Shown here: positions 51,536 to 64,000 of the stretch, one piece after another
Layout: every line of letters starts with the position of its first letter
Numbering within the stretch: position 1 is the stretch's first letter
Source of the DNA: Knoellia flava TL1
GTDB taxonomy: Bacteria > Actinomycetota > Actinomycetes > Actinomycetales > Dermatophilaceae
Direction: 5' to 3'
NCBI RefSeq assembly: GCF_000768675.1
Contig: NZ_AVPI01000056.1
Location: 62,001-126,000, forward strand
DNA: 64,000 bases
The notes under the pieces: generated by a model
The model's database searches: none
What the model was told of the DNA's origin: nothing
The model's input: only the letters and a program-made list of their open reading frames with translations
Position numbers and translations under genes: made by a program

Positions 51536-51673
51536 TCAGCCCGGGGCGCCGGCGGGGATCCTTCCGGGTGAACTTCACGCACATCGCTCTCAACCGGTCG
51601 CGCGGCGGCGAACCATGAGTCCTGGGGGTGGTGCGGCTTGCACGACTCCACAGGACTTCCTTGGAGGACGCAC

Positions 51674-52327
51674 ATGTCACGTCAGAGCTTTCGTCGACTC
51701 GCAGGGGCAGCGTTCGGACTCGCGGTGATCGGCGGGTCGGGAGTGGCGTTCGCGGGGGCGGCCCACGCAGACCCCAACCCGAACGTCACCATCTGCCACG
51801 CGACGGGCAACCCGGACAAGTGGGTCGTGCTCACGATCGACGCCGCAGCGATCACCCAGCAGGGTCACGACACCCACCAGGACGACCGGGACGTCATCCC
51901 GCCCTTCGAGTACGTCGCCGAGAACACCGAGGAGACGGTGAGCTTCCCGGGCCAGAACTGGGACGACAACTGGGAGACGAACGGCGAGGGCGTGGCCGTC
52001 GGAACGGTGACCCAGGCTGACTGCCAGGTGGAGACGTCCACTCCCACGCCGACCCCGACGCCGACGGTCACCGTGACGCCGACGCCGACGGTCACCGTGA
52101 CGCCGACGCCGACGGTCACCGTGACGCCGACGCCGACGCCGAGCGTCACCGTGACGCCCACGCCCAGCGTGCCCGTGACGCCCACCCCGAGCGGCCCGGT
52201 CGTCGAGACCGACCTCGTGGAGCAGGGTGGGTCCGCATCCGCCCTCCTCGGCGGAGGCGCTGCCCTCGTCCTTGCCGGTGCGGGAGCCGCCGCGGCGGTC
52301 CTCCGCCGCAGGGGTAGCCACGCCTGA
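51674..52327 (+). CDS. Repeat-rich surface protein 1, putative sortase substrate
   Basis: A 217-residue wall protein. It has a signal peptide (MSRQSFRRL then a hydrophobic run to AGAAHA near 43). Next is a domain of about 90 residues starting NVTICHATGNPDKWVV and ending FPGQNWDDNW, with two Cys. A TPTPTVTV repeat region follows. It ends with GPVVETDLV, a hydrophobic segment (LLGGGAALVLAGAGAAAAV) and RRRGSHA. This is sorting-signal architecture, but LPXTG is absent. GGAGGA precedes the ATG by 5 nt. Confidence 0.83.
   Translation: MSRQSFRRLAGAAFGLAVIGGSGVAFAGAAHADPNPNVTICHATGNPDKWVVLTIDAAAITQQGHDTHQDDRDVIPPFEYVAENTEETVSFPGQNWDDNWETNGEGVAVGTVTQADCQVETSTPTPTPTPTVTVTPTPTVTVTPTPTVTVTPTPTPSVTVTPTPSVPVTPTPSGPVVETDLVEQGGSASALLGGGAALVLAGAGAAAAVLRRRGSHA
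52063..52134 (+). repeat. 24-bp tandem repeat coding TPTPTVTV
   Basis: GACGGTCACCGT begins at 52063, 52087 and 52111. Three near-exact 24-bp units encode the stalk; each unit is in frame, so copy changes would alter length without a frameshift. Confidence 0.8.
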
Positions 52328-52651
52328 CACCCCGGCGCTCCGCCTGCGAGAGCTGGTGGCCATCACGTCCGGCGCGCTCTCCTCACCCGGTCTCGTCCGG
52401 GGAGGAGGGTGCGCCGGCTTCGGTCCTTTGCGTCGTCGTCGCCGACGCGATCGGCCCTCGGGCTCGGGGCCTCACGCCGACAGCGCCGCGGGCATAGTTC
52501 CTTCAGGCGGTCGGGATGGTCCTCCTGAGATCAATGACTAGTCCCTTGTAGGCAAGCTCGGTCAATCTCCCCCAGTGGTTACTGATGGGTCATCAGCATG
52601 GGTGCGGTGCACCGCCTGCACCTCACCTGACACCCGAGGGGACCACCACAC
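52328..52651. other. 324-bp gap between the two surface-protein genes
   Basis: No gene. It contains a terminator-like hairpin (52379-52407), the inverted repeat CTGATG-GGT-CATCAG (52582-52596) and the 12-bp palindrome GCGGTGCACCGC (52604-52615). The last two probably belong to control of the second gene. Confidence 0.5.
52379..52407 (+). terminator. Imperfect hairpin after surface protein 1
   Basis: CTCCTC and GAGGAG close a stem that continues with two mismatches to the loop. It starts 52 nt after the stop. Confidence 0.45.
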
Positions 52652-53584
52652 ATGACTCACGACGACGCACGGACGATCACCAGCACGGCCCTCGGGCTGG
52701 CTCTGGTCGGGGGTGTCGCCGCCTCCATCGCCCTGGCCTCAGTCGCGCAGGCGGATCCGCAGCCCAAGGTGACGATCTGTCACGCCACGGGAGCCGAGGA
52801 CCACTGGGTCGTCATCACCGTCGACGCCGCGTCGATCCTCGACGGCAACGGGCAGGCGGGAAGCGGGCGCAACGTCATCCCGCCGTTCGTGCACACCGAC
52901 AACAATGGTGGGAACCCGGTGTCGTACCCGGGCCTCAACTGGCAGGACAACTGGGAGGTCGACGCCCATGGGGCGGCCACCGGTTCCGTGAGCTCCGATG
53001 ACTGCGTCGCGGGTGAATTCATGTCCGAGCCCTCCGCCACGCCGTCGCACACGCAGACCCCGACGCCGACGGCCACGCAGACCTCCACTCCCAGCCCGGA
53101 GGTCACCCCGACGGTCGAGCCCGGCCCCACCGAGACGAACGACCCCGACGACTCGGCGACGCCGACGCCGACGCCCACCCCCGACGTCACCGAGACGGCC
53201 ACGGCGCCGGAGGTCACGGTGACGCCGACGCCCACTCCGGACGTCACCGAGACGACCACGGCGCCGGAGGTCACGGTGACGCTGACGCCCACCCCGGACG
53301 TCACCGAGACGACCACGGCTCCGGAGGTCACGGCGACGCCGACGCCCACCCCGGACGTCACCGAGACGACCGCACCGACCCCTGGCGTCACCACGACGCC
53401 CTCCGTGCCGGCACCCACCACCACGGTCGGTGGCGGCACCGCGGTGCAGCCCTCCGGGCCCGTCGTCGAGACCGACGTGGTGTCCGGCCCCGACTCGTCC
53501 CTCCTCGGGGCCGGCTCGGCCCTCCTCGTCCTGGGTGCCGGCGCCGTCCTGGCGGGCACGCGACGAGGTCGGCAGCACCCCTGA
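52652..53584 (+). CDS. Repeat-rich surface protein 2, paralogue of protein 1
   Basis: A 310-residue wall protein with the same plan: signal peptide to about residue 35, the domain KVTICHATGAEDHWVV to YPGLNWQDNW, and a long Thr/Pro/Glu stalk. A Gly/Thr linker follows, then GPVVETDVV, a hydrophobic segment (LLGAGSALLVLGAGAVLAG) and RRGRQHP. The stalk has 19-residue repeats (TPTPTPDVTETTTAPEVTV). GAGGGG lies about 10 nt upstream. It shares one base with the sortase start, tying it to that enzyme. Confidence 0.85.
   Translation: MTHDDARTITSTALGLALVGGVAASIALASVAQADPQPKVTICHATGAEDHWVVITVDAASILDGNGQAGSGRNVIPPFVHTDNNGGNPVSYPGLNWQDNWEVDAHGAATGSVSSDDCVAGEFMSEPSATPSHTQTPTPTATQTSTPSPEVTPTVEPGPTETNDPDDSATPTPTPTPDVTETATAPEVTVTPTPTPDVTETTTAPEVTVTLTPTPDVTETTTAPEVTATPTPTPDVTETTAPTPGVTTTPSVPAPTTTVGGGTAVQPSGPVVETDVVSGPDSSLLGAGSALLVLGAGAVLAGTRRGRQHP
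53164..53371 (+). repeat. 57-bp tandem repeat in surface protein 2
   Basis: Units begin at 53164, 53221, 53278 and 53335 (the last incomplete), each 57 bp or 19 codons and differing by a few bases. They are in frame. Confidence 0.85.
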
Positions 53585-54345
53585 TGTCCGGGCGCCCTCT
53601 GACCATCGGGGGCGTCGCCGCTCTGGTGGTGGGCGGACTCCTCCTCGCCCTCGGGCTCGGCCCGGGGCGAGGAGGAGCGGAACCAGTCGGGGCCTCCTCG
53701 ACGAGCCGCGGGGCATTGGACGTGGCCTGGGGGGTCGCCCCTCCGCAGATCCTGCCGAGCACGCAGGACCCGAGCGCCGACAGCTACTTCGACGGCACGG
53801 CGCAGACAGCGGGTTCGGGCAACACGGGTCGGGCAAAAGCCTCGTCGTCCCGCGGTGGTGCCTCGCCGAGCGGGGCAGCACCCACCCCGCCGGCACGCCA
53901 CGTGTCGGGTGTGCGACTCGAGGTTCCCTCGATCGGTCTGGACCTCGACGTGCACGGTGGGGGAGTGAGTTCCTCGGGCCGGGTGGTGCCGCCCGTGGGG
54001 CGGGCGACCTGGGTACGCGGCTTCGGCCGGGTCGCCCCCGGCGGCGTCGGCACGGCGGTCGTTGCCGGCCACGTCTCTGCCCATGGCAGGCGCGACGTCT
54101 TCGCCGACCTGTCGTCGGTGCGTGTCGGGCACGAGCTCGTCGTGCGCTCCGGCTCCGTGGTGAGGATCTATGCGGTGACGCGGGTGAGTGTCGTCGACAA
54201 GGCGAAGCTCACCAGTGACGCCGAGGTCTGGGGCCCGAACGGCTCGCATCGCCGGCTCGTCCTCATCACCTGCGACGACGACCTCGGCTACCGCGAGGAC
54301 GGTCACAGGGTGGCGAACTACGCCGTCGTGGCCGAGGCGATCTGA
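53584..54345 (+). CDS. Sortase (class E/F-like)
   Basis: Membrane-anchored transpeptidase of 253 residues. After an N-terminal helix (residues about 7-28) and a long Ser/Ala/Gly linker comes the sortase fold: RLEVPSIGLDLDVHGGGV, the catalytic His in VVAGHVSAHG near residue 164, the Cys in LVLITCDDDL near 228 and a likely Arg in GHRVANY. The spacing resembles the short actinobacterial class E/F enzymes. It is directly joined to its two probable substrates. Confidence 0.88.
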   Translation: MSGRPLTIGGVAALVVGGLLLALGLGPGRGGAEPVGASSTSRGALDVAWGVAPPQILPSTQDPSADSYFDGTAQTAGSGNTGRAKASSSRGGASPSGAAPTPPARHVSGVRLEVPSIGLDLDVHGGGVSSSGRVVPPVGRATWVRGFGRVAPGGVGTAVVAGHVSAHGRRDVFADLSSVRVGHELVVRSGSVVRIYAVTRVSVVDKAKLTSDAEVWGPNGSHRRLVLITCDDDLGYREDGHRVANYAVVAEAI

Positions 54346-57566: not shown

Positions 57567-58325
57567 ATGCTGCTCGAGGGCAAGAAGCTGCTCATCACGG
57601 GAGTCCTCATGGACTCCTCGATCGCCTTCCACGTCGCCAAGCTGGCGCAGGAGCAGGGAGCCGAGGTCGTGCTCACGTCCTTCGGGCGGACGATGAAGAT
57701 CACGTCGACCATCGCCAAGCGGCTGCCGACGACGCCGCCGGTGGTCGAGCTCGACGTCACCGACACCGAGCACCTCGACACCCTTGCCGAGCGCCTGCGC
57801 GAGCACGTCGACGGGCTCGACGGTGTGCTGCACTCGATCGGCTTCGCGCCGCAGGGCGCCTTCAACTTCCTCGAGGGGACCTTCGAGGACGTGTCGACGG
57901 CGATGCACGCATCGGCCTACTCGCTCAAGTCGCTCGCCGTCGCCGCGCTGCCGCTCATGTCGCCCGGCTCGTCGGTGGTCGGCCTGACGTTCGACGCGAA
58001 GTTCGCCTGGCCCGTCTACGACTGGATGGGTGTGGCCAAGGCCGCCTTCGAATCCACCAACCGCTACCTCGCTCGCGACCTCGGTCCCAAGGGCGTGCGC
58101 TGCAACCTCGTCGCTGCCGGGCCGATCCGGACCACGGCCGCGAAGTCGATCCCGGGGTTCCAGACCTTCGAGGACTCGTGGGACGAGCGGGCACCGCTGG
58201 GCTGGGACGTCAACGACGCCGTGCCGGCGGCGAAGGCGTGCGCCGCCCTGTTGTCCGACTGGTTCCCCGCGACGACGGGCGAGATCGTCCACGTCGACGG
58301 TGGCGTCCACGCGATGGGCATCTGA
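57567..58325 (+). CDS. inhA: Enoyl-ACP reductase InhA/FabI
   Basis: NADH-dependent last step of each fatty-acid elongation cycle, 252 residues. The family opening LLEGKKLLITGVLMDSSIAFHVA, HSIGFAPQGAF and the active-site Tyr and Lys in YDWMGVAKAAFES are present. CAGGAGAACGAC precedes the ATG. It is the likely target of triclosan-type inhibitors by family. Confidence 0.96.
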   Translation: MLLEGKKLLITGVLMDSSIAFHVAKLAQEQGAEVVLTSFGRTMKITSTIAKRLPTTPPVVELDVTDTEHLDTLAERLREHVDGLDGVLHSIGFAPQGAFNFLEGTFEDVSTAMHASAYSLKSLAVAALPLMSPGSSVVGLTFDAKFAWPVYDWMGVAKAAFESTNRYLARDLGPKGVRCNLVAAGPIRTTAAKSIPGFQTFEDSWDERAPLGWDVNDAVPAAKACAALLSDWFPATTGEIVHVDGGVHAMGI

Positions 58326-58352: not shown

Positions 58353-60557
58353 GTGACCAGCGACCTGCACACCGCACCTGCCGTGACCGCAACCGAGGTC
58401 CGGGTCCTCGAGGGGCCCAACCTCTACTTCCCGAGGCCGGCGGCCAAGGTCACGCTCGACCTCACGCCATACGTCGACGCCGACCGTGAGACGCTCGGCC
58501 GCGTCGCTCGCACGGCAGGACTCGGCGGCGCCCAGGTGGGCGACCCGCACACCGAGCAGCGTCAGCGGGTCGTCGCGCGACTGGCCGAACGCGCTGTGCG
58601 GCAGGTGTCCCGCGCGTCGGGCACAAGCCGGCTCGGCGTCCGGTCGCGGCCCGGCACCGAGCTGTCGGTCGTCGTCGTGTCGTTCGTCTGGCGCCGGCGC
58701 GGCTCGGCGCAGGCCCTCGGCGAGTCCGTGGCACCGGTGCTCGAGGCGTGGCTGCGCGGTGACGACGTCGTCGAGCAGCAGGCCGAGCTCGTCCGGTCCG
58801 CGCCGGACGGCCCGCCGCCGCGGATCGTCACGCCCCGGATCCCCGTGGCGTCGGTGACCGGCACCAACGGCAAGACGTCGACGACCCGCCTGCTCGCCCA
58901 CATCGCCATGACGGCCGGCAAGCACACGGCGTGGAGCTCGACGGACGGCGTCGTCGACCACGGCGAGATGGTCGAGGCGGGCGACTTCTCCGGACCGGCC
59001 GGTGCCCGCGGCGTGCTGGGTGCGCCCGGCGTCGAAATCGGGATCCTCGAGACCGCGCGCGGCGGCATGCTCCTCAAGGGCCTCGGGGTGTCGCACAACG
59101 ACGTCTCCGTGGTCACCAACGTCTCGGCCGACCACCTCGGTCTCCACGGCGTCGACACTGTCGACCAGCTCGCTGAGGTCAAGGCGATCATCACGCGCGC
59201 CACGCGCCCCGAGGGGTGGACCGTCCTCAACGGTGACGACCCCCGCGTCTGGGCGATGCGCACCGGCTCTCCCGCGAAGCCGTGGGTCTTCACGCTCGAC
59301 CCGAACTCGCCGGCGATCCGTGAGTCGCTCGGTGCCGGGGGACGAGCGATCACCGTCCTCGACGACCACGTCACCGTGCTCAGCGAGTCGGGTATGCCGG
59401 ACCGTCTCGTCCCGATCGTCGACATCCCGATGACGATCAGCGGCCTGTCGCGGCACAACGTCGCCAACGTCCTCGCCGCGGCTGCGGCCGCGCTCGGGCT
59501 CGGCATCGACCGCGACGCGGTCGTCGAGGGCCTGCGCTCGTTCCGTCCCGACGCCTCGCTCAACCCGGGCCGCATGAACACCTACACGGCGACGGCTGGG
59601 CTCGGCGGCCAGTGCACCGTCGTCGTCGACCTCGCGCACAACGAGGCCGGGCTCGAAGCGCTCATGGACGTCGCCGAGGGGCTCGTGGCGCCCGGCTCGC
59701 GGATCCACCTGGGCCTCGGCGCCGCCGGCGACCGCACCGACGAGATCCTCGAGAACCTCGGCGAGATCGCGGGGCACCGGGCCGACCACGTCGTCGCCGC
59801 GCACAAGGCGCACTACCTGCGCGGCCGCTCGATGGAGGAGCTCGAGAGCCACCTCCGGATCGGGCTGCAGCGGGCGGGAGTGGCCGACATCGCGTCCTAC
59901 ACGACCGAGCTCGCCGGGCTGCAGGCGCTCGTCGAGGCCGCGCACGACGGTGACGTCGTCGCGATCATGTGCCATGCCGAGCGGCAGGCGATCTACGACT
60001 GGCTCGCCGAGATCGGTGCGGTCGCCGACGACGCGGCGGACATCCGCCGCAAGGTCATCGCCTCCCGCGGTGAGCACGAGGCCGAGGAGGCCATCGCCGA
60101 GCTCTGGGCCGACGAGGACGCGGACCGGCGCATCGAGACCGCTGCGCGCCTGCACGCGGCCTACCCCGGCGACTCCCGGATCACCTACGAGTACGCCGGC
60201 ACCTTCGACTCGGCCGGGCAGGAGCAGCGGGCCGTCGAGCTCTACCGCGAGGCGCTCGACATCGGTCTGCGTGAGCCCTTCCACCACCGGGCCGTCATCC
60301 AGCTCGCGTCCTCGCTGCGCAACGTCGGCGAGCACGAGGAGGCCGTGCGCCTGCTCGACGAGCTCGCCGCCGACCGTCCCGAGTCGGTCGGCGTCGCTGC
60401 CTTCCGCGCCCTCGCCCTGCACTCGGCGGGTCGGTCGGCCGACGCGCTCGGCGGGCTGCTGTCGGTCGTCGCTCAGGCGAGCACCGACGAGGACGTGCTG
60501 CGCTACCGGCGCTCGCTCACGGCATACGCGAAGGAGCTGGAGCAGGGCGTGAGGTGA
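58353..60557 (+). CDS. CphA-like Mur ligase fused to a TPR domain, without ATP-grasp
   Basis: A 734-residue protein in three parts. Residues 14-150 begin EVRVLEGPNLYFPRPAAKV and look like a divergent form of the N-terminal domain of cyanophycin synthetase. Residues about 158-570 form a Mur ligase: P-loop SVTGTNGKTSTTRLLAH, then ETARGGMLLKGLGVSHNDV, VSADHLGLHGVDTV and DLAHNEAG, each with a counterpart in the neighbouring CphA. Residues 575-734 are helical TPR repeats (RAVIQLASSLRNVGEHEEAVRLL), which usually form a separate small protein. The ATP-grasp half of CphA is missing. Substrate unknown. Confidence 0.85.
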   Translation: MTSDLHTAPAVTATEVRVLEGPNLYFPRPAAKVTLDLTPYVDADRETLGRVARTAGLGGAQVGDPHTEQRQRVVARLAERAVRQVSRASGTSRLGVRSRPGTELSVVVVSFVWRRRGSAQALGESVAPVLEAWLRGDDVVEQQAELVRSAPDGPPPRIVTPRIPVASVTGTNGKTSTTRLLAHIAMTAGKHTAWSSTDGVVDHGEMVEAGDFSGPAGARGVLGAPGVEIGILETARGGMLLKGLGVSHNDVSVVTNVSADHLGLHGVDTVDQLAEVKAIITRATRPEGWTVLNGDDPRVWAMRTGSPAKPWVFTLDPNSPAIRESLGAGGRAITVLDDHVTVLSESGMPDRLVPIVDIPMTISGLSRHNVANVLAAAAAALGLGIDRDAVVEGLRSFRPDASLNPGRMNTYTATAGLGGQCTVVVDLAHNEAGLEALMDVAEGLVAPGSRIHLGLGAAGDRTDEILENLGEIAGHRADHVVAAHKAHYLRGRSMEELESHLRIGLQRAGVADIASYTTELAGLQALVEAAHDGDVVAIMCHAERQAIYDWLAEIGAVADDAADIRRKVIASRGEHEAEEAIAELWADEDADRRIETAARLHAAYPGDSRITYEYAGTFDSAGQEQRAVELYREALDIGLREPFHHRAVIQLASSLRNVGEHEEAVRLLDELAADRPESVGVAAFRALALHSAGRSADALGGLLSVVAQASTDEDVLRYRRSLTAYAKELEQGVR

Positions 60558-60632: not shown

Positions 60633-63527
60633 TCACTGCGTGGTCGAGCCTGCGTGGGCCGCCGCCTCGGGGTCGACCTCTCCGAGGTCGTGGTCGGCGA
60701 GGTCCTGGTCGGTGGCCTCCTCGCCGCTGACCTGCGCCTCGGCCGAGAGGGTGCTCGGGTCGAGGTCCGGGTCGGCGAGCGAGTCGGCGGTGCGGGTGCC
60801 GGGCTGCGCCTGCTTCGTCATCGTCTCGAGCTCGTTCATGACGACGCCGTGCTGGTCGACGCAGACGACGACGATGTCGCCGGGGTTGGCGCGGGCCATG
60901 ACGTGGCGCACGGCCGAGAGCTCGTCGGTGACGATCTCGACCTGACGGCAGCGCGCGCCCTCGGCCATCGCGGCCTTGGCACCCTCGGCCACGTGGCCGG
61001 CCGTCTCGCCGGGCTTGCGGCCGCGCAGGCGCTCGTCCTCACGCACGACGATGACGTCGAAGTGCTGGGCCGCGAGGGTGCCGAGCTCGCGCATGTCCTC
61101 GTCGCGCCGGTCGCCGGCAGTGGCGATGACGCCGAGCCGCGAGATCTTGCCGAGGTCGCTCGAGCCCGCCTTGGCGTCGGCGTAGCGCTCGACGAACTCG
61201 CCGAGGACCTTCATGCCGGGAGCGTTGTGGCAGTAGTCGACGATGACGTCGATGTTGTTGACGTTGACCTGGTTCATGCGGCCGGGGGAGAGGTAGTAGC
61301 TCGTCGAGAACGTCCGCAGGCCCTGACGGATCTCGTGCAGGCCGGTGCCCACGGCGAAGGCCGCACCGGCGGCCGCCATGGCGTTGGCGACGTTGAACAT
61401 CGCCGTCCCGCCGAAGGTCGCGGGGAGGAGGTGGGTCCACGCCAGCTGCATCGCGCGGCGGCCGTGGCGGATGACGATCATGTCGCCCTTGTCGGAAGGC
61501 TCGAGGACGACGGCGCGACCGCCGCGGCGGCAGTGGTCATCGACGAAGTCGCGCACCGGGGTGCCCGGGGCGGACATCGTGAACCAGACGACCGAGCCGG
61601 AGCACTTGCGGCGCATCTTGCGGACGAGCTTGTCGTCGGCGTTGAGGACGGCGAAGCCGTTGCGCGGCACCGCCTCGACGATGACGGCCTTGACGTCCGC
61701 GAGCTGCTCGACGGTCTCGATGCCGCGCAGCCCGAGGTGGTCGGGTGCGATGTTGGTGACGACGGCGACGTCGTTGCGGTCGTAGCCGAGGCCCTCGCGC
61801 AGGATGCCTCCCCGCGCCACCTCCATGACGGCGAAGTCGACGCGCGGGTTCTGCAGGACCATGCGGGCGGACTTCGGGCCGGACGCGTCGGCCTTGAAGA
61901 CCAGGCGCTCGTCGACGACGATGCCGTCGGTCGACGTCATGCCGACCTTGCGGCCGACGCCCTTCATGATGTGGGCGATCATCCGCGACGTCGTCGTCTT
62001 GCCGTTGGTGCCGGTGACCGCGACGATCGGCACGCGCGAGGGCGCGCCGGGCGGGAAGAGCAGGTCGACCACGGGCCGGGCGATGAACTGCGGCTCGCCG
62101 ATGGTGGGGTGCGTGTGCATCCGGAAACCCGGGGCGGCGTTGACCTCGCAGATGGCGCCGCCGGTCTCGCGCACGGGGGAGGCGATGTCGGGACAGATGA
62201 AGTCGATGCCGGCGACGTCGAGCCCGACCATGCGGGCGGCCTCCTCGGCGATCTCGACGTTGTCGGGGTGGGCGTCGAAGGTGCGGTCGACCGAGATGCC
62301 GCCGGTCGACATGTTGCCGGTGAGGGCGAGCTTGACCATGGTGCCCTGCGGCGGGACGGCGTCCATCTCGAAGCCCTGGTCGCGCACGAGCCCCTCGGCG
62401 GCGCGGTCGACCTTGATGCGGGTGAGGACCTTCTCGTGCCCCACGCCGCGGCGGGGGTCGGAGTTCGTGATGTCGACGAGCTCGGCGACGGTGTGCTCGC
62501 CGTCGCCGACGACGTGGGCCGGCACGCGCTCGGCGATCGCCTGCATCCGGCCGCCGACGATGAGGCAGCGGTAGTCCTTGCCGGTGACGAAGGACTCGAC
62601 GATGACGTAGCCGCGGCGCGACTGCTCGCGGGCGACCTCGAACGCCTCGCGCACCTCGTCGTCACTCTGGAGGTCGAGGCACACGCCACGCCCGTGGTTG
62701 CCGTCGAGCGGCTTGACGACGACGGGGAAGCCGATCCTGCGGGCGGCCGCGACGGCGTCGTTGGGGCCGCGCACCGTCTCCTGCTTGGGCACGGGAAGGC
62801 CGGCGGACCCGAGCAGCTTGGTCGTGAGGTCCTTGTCGGAGGCGATGTCGACGGCGAGAGCCCCGGTCTTCGAGGTCATCGTCGCCCGGATGCGCTGGGC
62901 GTGCACGCCTTGCCCGAGCTGGACGAGGCTGGCGCTGTTGAGCCGGATGTAGGGGATGTCGCGGCTCACCGCCTCCTCGAGGATCGCGGCCGTCGACGGG
63001 CCGAAGGCGGTCCGCTCGGCGCGCTTGAGGAAGCTCTCGAGCGCCTCGTCGAAGTCGAAGCCCTCCTCCTCCTGCACGAGGTGGTTGACGAGGCGCACCG
63101 CGAGCGTCCCCGCGGCGAGGCCCACGCCCTCGTCGGAGTAGCCGTAGATGACGTTGTAGCGGCCCGGCACGCCCTTCACCTGGCGCGTCTTGCCTCGACG
63201 CTGGTCGTGGCCCGCCTCCTGCTGGAGCTGCAGCGCGATGTGCTCGCTCACGTGGCCGAGCCAGGTGCCCTCGCGCATGCGCTCGATGAAGCCGCCCTTG
63301 ACCCCGCGCGAGCACGTGTGGTTCTCGAGACCGGGAAGGAGCTCGACGAGCCGGTCGGTGAACCCGTCGATGAGGTTGGTCGGGTACTGCTCGAGGATGC
63401 CGAGGTCGACGACGAGGTGGATCGCCGGGTCGTACGACCAGACGTTGCCGCCGCGGTAGACACGGGACTCGACGATGGTGAGCTCGGGTGCGGCCGGGCC
63501 GGTGGGGGTCGGGCGGTCCTCGGACAT
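60633..63527 (-). CDS. cphA: Cyanophycin synthetase
   Basis: ATP-driven polymerase building the Asp-Arg storage polymer cyanophycin, 964 residues. In order: N-terminal domain from SRVYRGGNVWSYDPAIHLVVD; ATP-grasp domain (about 220-490: VVVKPLDGNHGRGVCL, ICEVNAAPGFRMH) that adds Asp; Mur-ligase domain with P-loop VTGTNGKTTTSRMIAH near 500 and DYCHNAPGMKVL near 765, which adds Arg. The last 60 residues are an acidic tail absent from most homologues of about 870-900. It lies just after cyanophycinase in the same direction. Confidence 0.95.
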   Translation of the reverse strand: MSEDRPTPTGPAAPELTIVESRVYRGGNVWSYDPAIHLVVDLGILEQYPTNLIDGFTDRLVELLPGLENHTCSRGVKGGFIERMREGTWLGHVSEHIALQLQQEAGHDQRRGKTRQVKGVPGRYNVIYGYSDEGVGLAAGTLAVRLVNHLVQEEEGFDFDEALESFLKRAERTAFGPSTAAILEEAVSRDIPYIRLNSASLVQLGQGVHAQRIRATMTSKTGALAVDIASDKDLTTKLLGSAGLPVPKQETVRGPNDAVAAARRIGFPVVVKPLDGNHGRGVCLDLQSDDEVREAFEVAREQSRRGYVIVESFVTGKDYRCLIVGGRMQAIAERVPAHVVGDGEHTVAELVDITNSDPRRGVGHEKVLTRIKVDRAAEGLVRDQGFEMDAVPPQGTMVKLALTGNMSTGGISVDRTFDAHPDNVEIAEEAARMVGLDVAGIDFICPDIASPVRETGGAICEVNAAPGFRMHTHPTIGEPQFIARPVVDLLFPPGAPSRVPIVAVTGTNGKTTTSRMIAHIMKGVGRKVGMTSTDGIVVDERLVFKADASGPKSARMVLQNPRVDFAVMEVARGGILREGLGYDRNDVAVVTNIAPDHLGLRGIETVEQLADVKAVIVEAVPRNGFAVLNADDKLVRKMRRKCSGSVVWFTMSAPGTPVRDFVDDHCRRGGRAVVLEPSDKGDMIVIRHGRRAMQLAWTHLLPATFGGTAMFNVANAMAAAGAAFAVGTGLHEIRQGLRTFSTSYYLSPGRMNQVNVNNIDVIVDYCHNAPGMKVLGEFVERYADAKAGSSDLGKISRLGVIATAGDRRDEDMRELGTLAAQHFDVIVVREDERLRGRKPGETAGHVAEGAKAAMAEGARCRQVEIVTDELSAVRHVMARANPGDIVVVCVDQHGVVMNELETMTKQAQPGTRTADSLADPDLDPSTLSAEAQVSGEEATDQDLADHDLGEVDPEAAAHAGSTTQ

Positions 63528-63569: not shown

Positions 63570-64000
63570 TCAGTCGGTGGAGCTGGCGGCGAGCGATGCG
63601 CCGACGTCGGGGTGCTGCTCGACGAACTCGACGAGCGTGGCCGTCGCCAGGTCGAAGGTGGCCCCGGCGGGAAGGTTGTGGATCACGGCCCCCGAGACGA
63701 GCAGTGGTGCCCCCCGGCGCGCGTCCGGTGCGTCGGTCGTGACGTCGCGGCAGTCGATGACGGTGACACCCCCGCGACCGTGCACGGTGAAGCGCGCCCC
63801 GTCGACGACCTCGATCGCCGTGTCCTCGTCGATGCCGATCCCCAGCAGGCTCGGCGAGGACGCGACGACGGACATGAGCCGACCGTAGCGCGACCTCTGG
63901 GCGAAGTGCTGGTCGACGATGACGCCCTTGAGCAGGCCCAGCCCGGCGCTGATCTGGCTGGCGCGCTGGACGGGTGTGATGCCCTCGTCGCCCATCGAGA
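63570..64000 (-). CDS. cphB: Cyanophycinase, cut by the window edge
   Basis: C-terminal 140 or so residues of the peptidase that degrades cyanophycin to Asp-Arg dipeptides. Recognisable are GLGLLKGVIVDQHFAQRSR and LLGIGIDEDTAIEV. The catalytic Ser region lies beyond the window end. The reading frame is open to base 64000, so the Met at 63995 is internal. It is 42 bp upstream of cphA, forming a turnover pair. Confidence 0.9.
   Translation of the reverse strand, partial: SMGDEGITPVQRASQISAGLGLLKGVIVDQHFAQRSRYGRLMSVVASSPSLLGIGIDEDTAIEVVDGARFTVHGRGGVTVIDCRDVTTDAPDARRGAPLLVSGAVIHNLPAGATFDLATATLVEFVEQHPDVGASLAASSTD

Follow-up and report, generated by a model that had tools for sequence, protein, structure and literature searches.

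A G-less relative of cyanophycin synthetase encoded beside cphA as a candidate second ligase of the cyanophycin system

Cyanophycin is a nitrogen-storage polymer of bacteria. One enzyme, CphA1, has been described as its sole maker (PMC10206079, PMC9427784). The stretch of Knoellia flava TL1 DNA analyzed here (64,000 nucleotides; hereafter, the window) raises the question of what a second CphA-like gene might do directly beside a cphA that is complete. The gene in question, which we call P0001, is an open reading frame of 734 aa with a GTG start (58353-60557, +). It begins 27 bp after a gene for a fabI-like enoyl reductase in the ORF list (57567..58325, +), which is syntenic in most Dermatophilaceae loci, and ends 75 bp from the stop of a convergent cphA (60633..63527, -). 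The latter encodes a full-length CphA1 of 964 aa whose N domain (with Cx19HxxEH present), ATP-grasp domain, and Mur domain are all matched by Pfam, and which scores 1154 bits against TIGR02068 (cut-off 850). Behind it lies a gene for the cyanophycinase CphB (63570..64000, -), which runs past the end of the window and whose in-window part scores 96 bits against TIGR02069. Elsewhere in the window, reading by eye identified a pair of paralogs with Thr/Pro repeats, each ending in a C-terminal membrane anchor, and after them a small sortase-like protein with an LITCDD motif (51638-54345, +).

Domain architecture of P0001

Across the 734 residues, Pfam matched Mur_ligase_M (residues 168-380, E 2.8e-19; 58854..59492, +), Mur_ligase_C (residues 406-539, E 2.6e-10; 59568..59969, +), and TPR_5 (PF12688, residues 609-729, E 4.3e-30, 104.8 bits relative to a gathering cut-off of 24.2), and it matched no ATP-grasp family. 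In an AlphaFold2 model built from a 35-member family alignment (pLDDT 90), the N domain passes directly into Mur. The PDB chains closest to this model are all CphA1, with residues 11-557 aligning to residues 1-872 of SuCphA1 in a single alignment that takes in both N and Mur (Z 41.4, 519 residues), and MurE is the next nearest structural group. By sequence, too, the Mur part finds its best PDB hits in the solved CphA1s (E 1e-65). P0001 is nevertheless outside both of these families, scoring 343 bits against TIGR02068 over profile positions 477-852 only (equivalog cut-off 850), and 95 bits against the MurE profile TIGR01085 (cut-off 257). The initial annotation had recognized a protein without the ATP-grasp half of CphA, and the Pfam search and an N domain that matches only the CphA N domain agree with it; because the ATP-grasp domain is absent, its proposal that P0001 does not elongate the backbone as CphA does is also supported.

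The N domain (residues 11-157; 58383..58823, +) was less easily placed, with no match to PF18921 (the CphA N domain) in the Pfam search and no relative in a sequence-only PDB search with the N-domain profile. Profile-profile comparison with hhalign did relate it to the CphA N domain (E 2.7e-7 local, 4.2e-10 global). Since the N domain might ride on the Mur match, residues 1-160 were folded separately (pLDDT 94.5), and the eleven top PDB chains for this lone domain were all CphA1 or CphA2 (Z 8.8-11.9), followed by an unrelated protein at Z 5.8. Because the lone-domain fold and the profile comparison agree, we conclude that nothing is hidden in P0001 beyond N and Mur, and an ATP-grasp fold concealed in residues 1-157, which the initial annotation had named as grounds against its own reading, is rejected.

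The motifs first picked out by eye fall where expected (GTNGKT at 170-175, ARGG at 235-238, DHLGL at 260-264, and HN at 429-430). The likeness to CphA in order and motifs that was claimed from them holds for the Mur part, which is 34% identical to that of the neighboring CphA, but the N domain shares mainly its fold and a GPN(L/Y) loop. This loop (GPNLY, residues 21-25) is the best conserved stretch of the partner N domain, being retained in 90-100% of the family, and presumably contains the position of Y14 of SuCphA1. In that enzyme, Y14 touches the polymer through its backbone (PMC9262961). The zinc peptidase motif HxxEH is found in 0/106 partner N domains versus 56/66 CphAs, and so the primer-generating Cx19HxxEH motif, present in 83% of CphA1s (PMC9262961), was not encountered in partners. 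Charge was considered as a common N-domain feature and rejected, since type I partners are basic (mean +8) and the type II partners described below are acidic (-13). Other Actinomycetota genomes without a full CphA hold ORFs of ~140-350 aa with weak PF18921 matches (e.g., G185:C7:138412-138756 and G395:C1:74253-74540), which are possible stand-alone N-like domains.

The C-terminal helical TPR region, defined by Pfam, the AlphaFold2 model, and the family alignment (residues 561-731; 60033..60545, +), fits the 160 residues of TPR repeats originally described. The fusion was not, however, a hallmark of the family: the TPR domain is found in 30/35 aligned members and is absent in the partners of Nocardioides, Dermacoccus, the other actinobacterial families examined, and Chloroflexota (L051-L054, L108-L141). 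It is a late addition in one lineage, and the core of the protein is the N-Mur partner. P0001 accordingly has every feature of the class defined in the present analysis as the G-less CphA partner, type I, namely an N domain and Mur without ATP-grasp, a Y insertion in the lid loop, and convergence with an adjoining cphA.

Co-inheritance with CphA

A survey of genomes for co-occurrence with cphA and cphB, proposed at the outset as a check, revealed cphA directly downstream on the opposite strand in 60/61 loci with the partner, with cphB behind cphA in nearly all; the sole exception lies at a contig end in a genome that has CphA elsewhere. Among 396 Actinomycetota genomes, 24 encode a member of the partner family. 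A strong CphA N domain was found in 23, every one of them also with the partner, and the one partner-only genome is 67% complete. Within the family to which Knoellia belongs (188 genomes), 104 genomes have a match and 84 have neither gene; in 102 of the 188, the partner is accompanied by at least one further match, CphA-sized among the matches listed. Two of the 104 matching genomes depart from this pattern. One is a bin, 58% complete, that contains a fragment of the partner; in the other, a contig that may be foreign or reflect a transfer (L210, G1189:C255) bears a cphA pair of type II rather than type I. In 350 Chloroflexota genomes, type I partners were found in 23, all with CphA, and at least six genomes have CphA alone. 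Six large Chloroflexota genomes combine CphA with an unlinked 542-aa Mur-only CphA relative (e.g., L143 5081-6706; L145 5727-7352, -), possibly a third partner type. Of 398 Pseudomonadota genomes, 29 have a match, and in four of these a Mur-only protein of 588-618 aa is in tandem with cphA. This tandem form, the type II partner of alphaproteobacteria, has the same order as Shinella and Ruegeria plasmids annotated cphB-cphA-“Mur ligase family protein.” Other tandem CphA-like pairs in Pseudomonadota (L189 3580-6147 and 6151-8397, -; L197 434-2737 and 2848-5424, +) each contain one copy (749 or 768 aa) without the Mur P-loop, a reduction opposite to that of P0001.

A tree computed from the Mur domains of 74 sequences, with three MurEs as the root (split off with 100/100 support) and complemented by a further comparison of 117 rows, gathers all sampled CphAs into one clade (UFBoot 100, SH-aLRT 97); the type I and type II partners and the 542-aa protein branch elsewhere. 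On this topology, the partner appears to be an ancient sister of CphA. The initial description of P0001 as a CphA relative that lost its ATP-grasp domain is thus not borne out as a recent loss from the neighboring CphA, which the tree rejects, with the proviso that the partner branches are long and the MurE root is distant, which allows for some attraction to the base. A faint possible remnant of ATP-grasp was seen in type II only. The segment is colinear, with an hhalign E of 0.029 in the first set and 5e-4 with one more sequence, and its best single hmmsearch E is 0.0065, relative to 0.041 reached by a shuffled sequence; we take it as a hint. Proteins without ATP-grasp in Deinococcus deserti (724 aa, L155 4011-6185) and Legionella adelaidensis (622 aa, L157 4311-6179) branch inside the CphA clade and, judging from this placement, represent separate, later losses. 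The Legionella gene accompanies cphB and an isoaspartyl peptidase gene.

Partner and CphA branch nearly identically, and the distances of the two halves across 30 pairs correlate with a Mantel r of 0.942 (0/5000 permutations), a value that, like the co-occurrence, is inflated by shared ancestry. Because Chloroflexota pairs nest among Actinomycetota pairs in both trees, the topology suggests that the two genes were transferred together. Partners evolve faster than their CphAs, 1.75-fold in type I. The functional link to CphA suggested from the single locus is therefore supported by linkage, co-occurrence, and mirrored trees, and we are highly confident that the P0001 family is a dedicated partner of CphA. 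Because both genes stayed together across Actinomycetota and Chloroflexota, the cyanophycin pathway in these phyla probably has an unrecognized second ligase.

The CphAs themselves may carry a mark of this partnership. Those paired with type I have an extra acidic C-terminal tail with a DP(D/G)(L/F/Y/I/E/M/V) motif, usually DPDLDP in relatives of the CphA in the window, where this candidate docking motif lies at 60756..60773 (-). The motif is present in 67/85 type I-partnered CphAs versus 1.6 expected from shuffled tails, and in 0/13 unpartnered CphAs. CphAs partnered with type II (L179, L180, L182, and L156) have a different conserved tail, in which acidic residues come after DERG(V/I). Tails are 66 residues long where the partner has a TPR domain and 42 where it does not, a difference that relatedness alone may explain. 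We hypothesize from these patterns that the acidic tail is a docking site for the partner.

The Mur active site and the candidate reaction

Pfam and alignment locate in the Mur core of P0001 the P-loop GTNGKT, ETARGG, DHLG, and K277, and in its lid PGRMN, DLAHN, and GDR, so that the CphA Mur features (P-loop, E558, DH585/586, K602, and lid, SuCphA1 numbering) are all present. Seventeen positions concerned with ATP, Mg, catalysis, and substrate were scored on an alignment with the SuCphA1 Mur sequence. K499, T500, T522, and E558 were taken from PMC9427784, D585 and H586 from PMC9262961, and the remainder were chosen by conservation. All 17 are kept in 45/46 partner sequences (27/28, 11/11, and 7/7 in three groups), and at 90/108 positions conserved at ≥85% in CphA the partner has the same majority residue. 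Judged on these residues, the partner is likely an active ligase.

The differences cluster in the lid, at R778, D781, F793, D801, and the position equivalent to D891 of the neighboring CphA, which in P0001 falls within a CHAER motif (residues 540-544; 59970..59984, +). The lid loop HKAHYLRGR (residues 484-492; 59802..59828, +) has one residue inserted before L-R-G-R (Y488), as in nearly all partner sequences, and is without the acidic residue D801, which is present in 59/67 CphAs and replaced by K, L, A, T, M, I, or N in partners. At 781, however, an acidic residue persists in type II partners, as does D at 801 in the 542-aa protein. This loop aligns with the MurE loop bearing the DNPR motif, and in MurE that motif serves the incoming diamino acid. 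Because partner types carry other residues where CphA conserves an acidic one in its lid loop, we infer that the partner has changed either its amine substrate or its mode of binding the amine, arginine included.

Taken together, the reading we favor makes P0001 a second ligase dedicated to the cyanophycin system, whose donor is not arginine, or which binds arginine differently, and we give this whole reading about even odds. Its more specific element, that plain arginine is not the donor, is a reasoned proposal that could equally go either way. Of the CphA domains, the partner would have kept N, which contacts the polymer, and Mur, or would never have possessed any others. The N domain would bind a chain of cyanophycin, or an oligomer ending in Asp, and present it to the Mur core, which would phosphorylate the free Asp carboxylate with ATP, and the lid would deliver an amino acid other than arginine, or arginine bound otherwise. 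Backbone growth would remain the task of CphA, the acidic tail of partnered CphAs may tether the two enzymes, and TPR would provide an accessory contact confined to one lineage. Such a reaction would yield cyanophycin that carries, is capped with, or is primed by another residue. Against this reading, the lid differences could reflect another arginine-binding mode, acidic residues persist at 781 in type II and at 801 in the 542-aa protein, and the neighboring CphAs are complete, with no step obviously missing.

The strongest alternative is an extra arginine ligase that carries out the same reaction as the CphA Mur domain, filling bare Asp side chains or speeding a rate-limiting step. In its favor, the partner retains every catalytic and acceptor-side residue of CphA, among them the equivalents of R561, D585/H586, and K602. 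However, the lid loops of types I and II are without the conserved acidic residue, nearly all partner types have the additional residue, and the adjoining CphA has a complete Mur domain, a redundancy that would hardly be kept so strictly; we regard this alternative as doubtful. Alternatively, the partner could make primers or dipeptides by joining free Asp to an amino acid, generating chains then extended by CphA. CphA1 requires (beta-Asp-Arg)-Asp or longer for an efficient start (PMC9262961), and the partner retains the Asp side-chain acceptor site. A separate primer source seems unneeded, however, where the neighboring CphA has the full Cx19HxxEH motif tied to self-priming (PMC9262961), and the partner retains an N domain, which in CphA binds long chains, making such a role unlikely.

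Mirrored trees, extra acidic tails on CphA, and the faster evolution of the partner would also suit a noncatalytic regulatory or structural subunit of CphA, but the 17 catalytic positions are kept in two phyla and the alphaproteobacterial type, unlike in a dead subunit, and we think this quite improbable. A cell-wall or cofactor Mur ligase merely adjoining cphA, which the Mur fold and the structural rank of MurE would allow, is very improbable and is rejected, since P0001 falls beside CphA and well away from MurE, carries the N domain of CphA in place of a UDP-binding domain, and tracks the presence and absence of CphA, with no sign of the wall-precursor role unlinked to cphA that the initial annotation had set against its own view.

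A bolder form of the second-ligase reading is that Actinomycetota, Chloroflexota, and some alphaproteobacteria operate a two-enzyme system, in which CphA and an N-Mur ligase, obligate and tethered by the tail, together produce a storage polymer made chemically distinct by the different amino acid that this ligase adds. We put this forward as a tentative possibility on the less likely side; were it true, a distinct polymer would have escaped notice on the assumption that CphA suffices by itself.

Significance and comparison with known systems

Because a second ligase tracks CphA over two phyla with its active-site residues intact and its amine-side loop rebuilt, the single-enzyme cyanophycin pathway outside Cyanobacteria is probably incomplete as drawn. 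Polymer composition in wastewater and soil Actinomycetota is worth re-measuring, and the partner could serve as a tool for altered cyanophycin. We found no paper describing the partner family in the literature searched, and older CphA surveys outside that scope may mention it. The nearest report concerns the wastewater Tetrasphaera MAGs TET1 and TET2, which have two cphA copies “in series,” the shorter of which is less expressed (PMC10687191). That copy belongs to the same bacterial family, adjoins cphA and cphB, and is shorter, as P0001 is; it was counted there as a second cphA, and its domains, family, and spread were left unanalyzed (PMC10687191). Matched by description rather than by sequence, it is probably the partner gene, in which case the partner gene is transcribed.

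Among characterized enzymes, CphA1 (PDB 7LG5, 7TXV, 7WAE) is the closest, with the same N fold packed on the Mur core, a complete Mur active site, and a cphB neighborhood; the partner differs in having neither ATP-grasp nor HxxEH, in its rebuilt lid loop, and in branching outside the CphA clade. MurE shares the Mur core and lid fold, the P-loop, and the carbamylated-lysine position, whereas the partner is without the UDP-binding N-terminal domain and has a CphA-like acceptor arginine context and lid loop. The type II proteins of Shinella and Ruegeria resemble type I in combining an N-terminal domain with a GPN-like loop and Mur without ATP-grasp, in their Y-L-R-G-R lid loop, and in co-inheritance with CphA, but they form a separate clade, have an acidic rather than basic N-terminal domain and a possible remnant of the start of ATP-grasp, and are in tandem rather than convergent. 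Finally, CphA2, the cyanobacterial beta-Asp-Arg polymerase (PDB 7TA5, 8FXI), is also a reduced CphA relative with an N domain lacking the zinc motif (PMC9262961), but the reduction is the opposite one: In CphA2, ATP-grasp works and the Mur P-loop and lid are lost (PMC9427784), whereas the partner keeps Mur and is without ATP-grasp.
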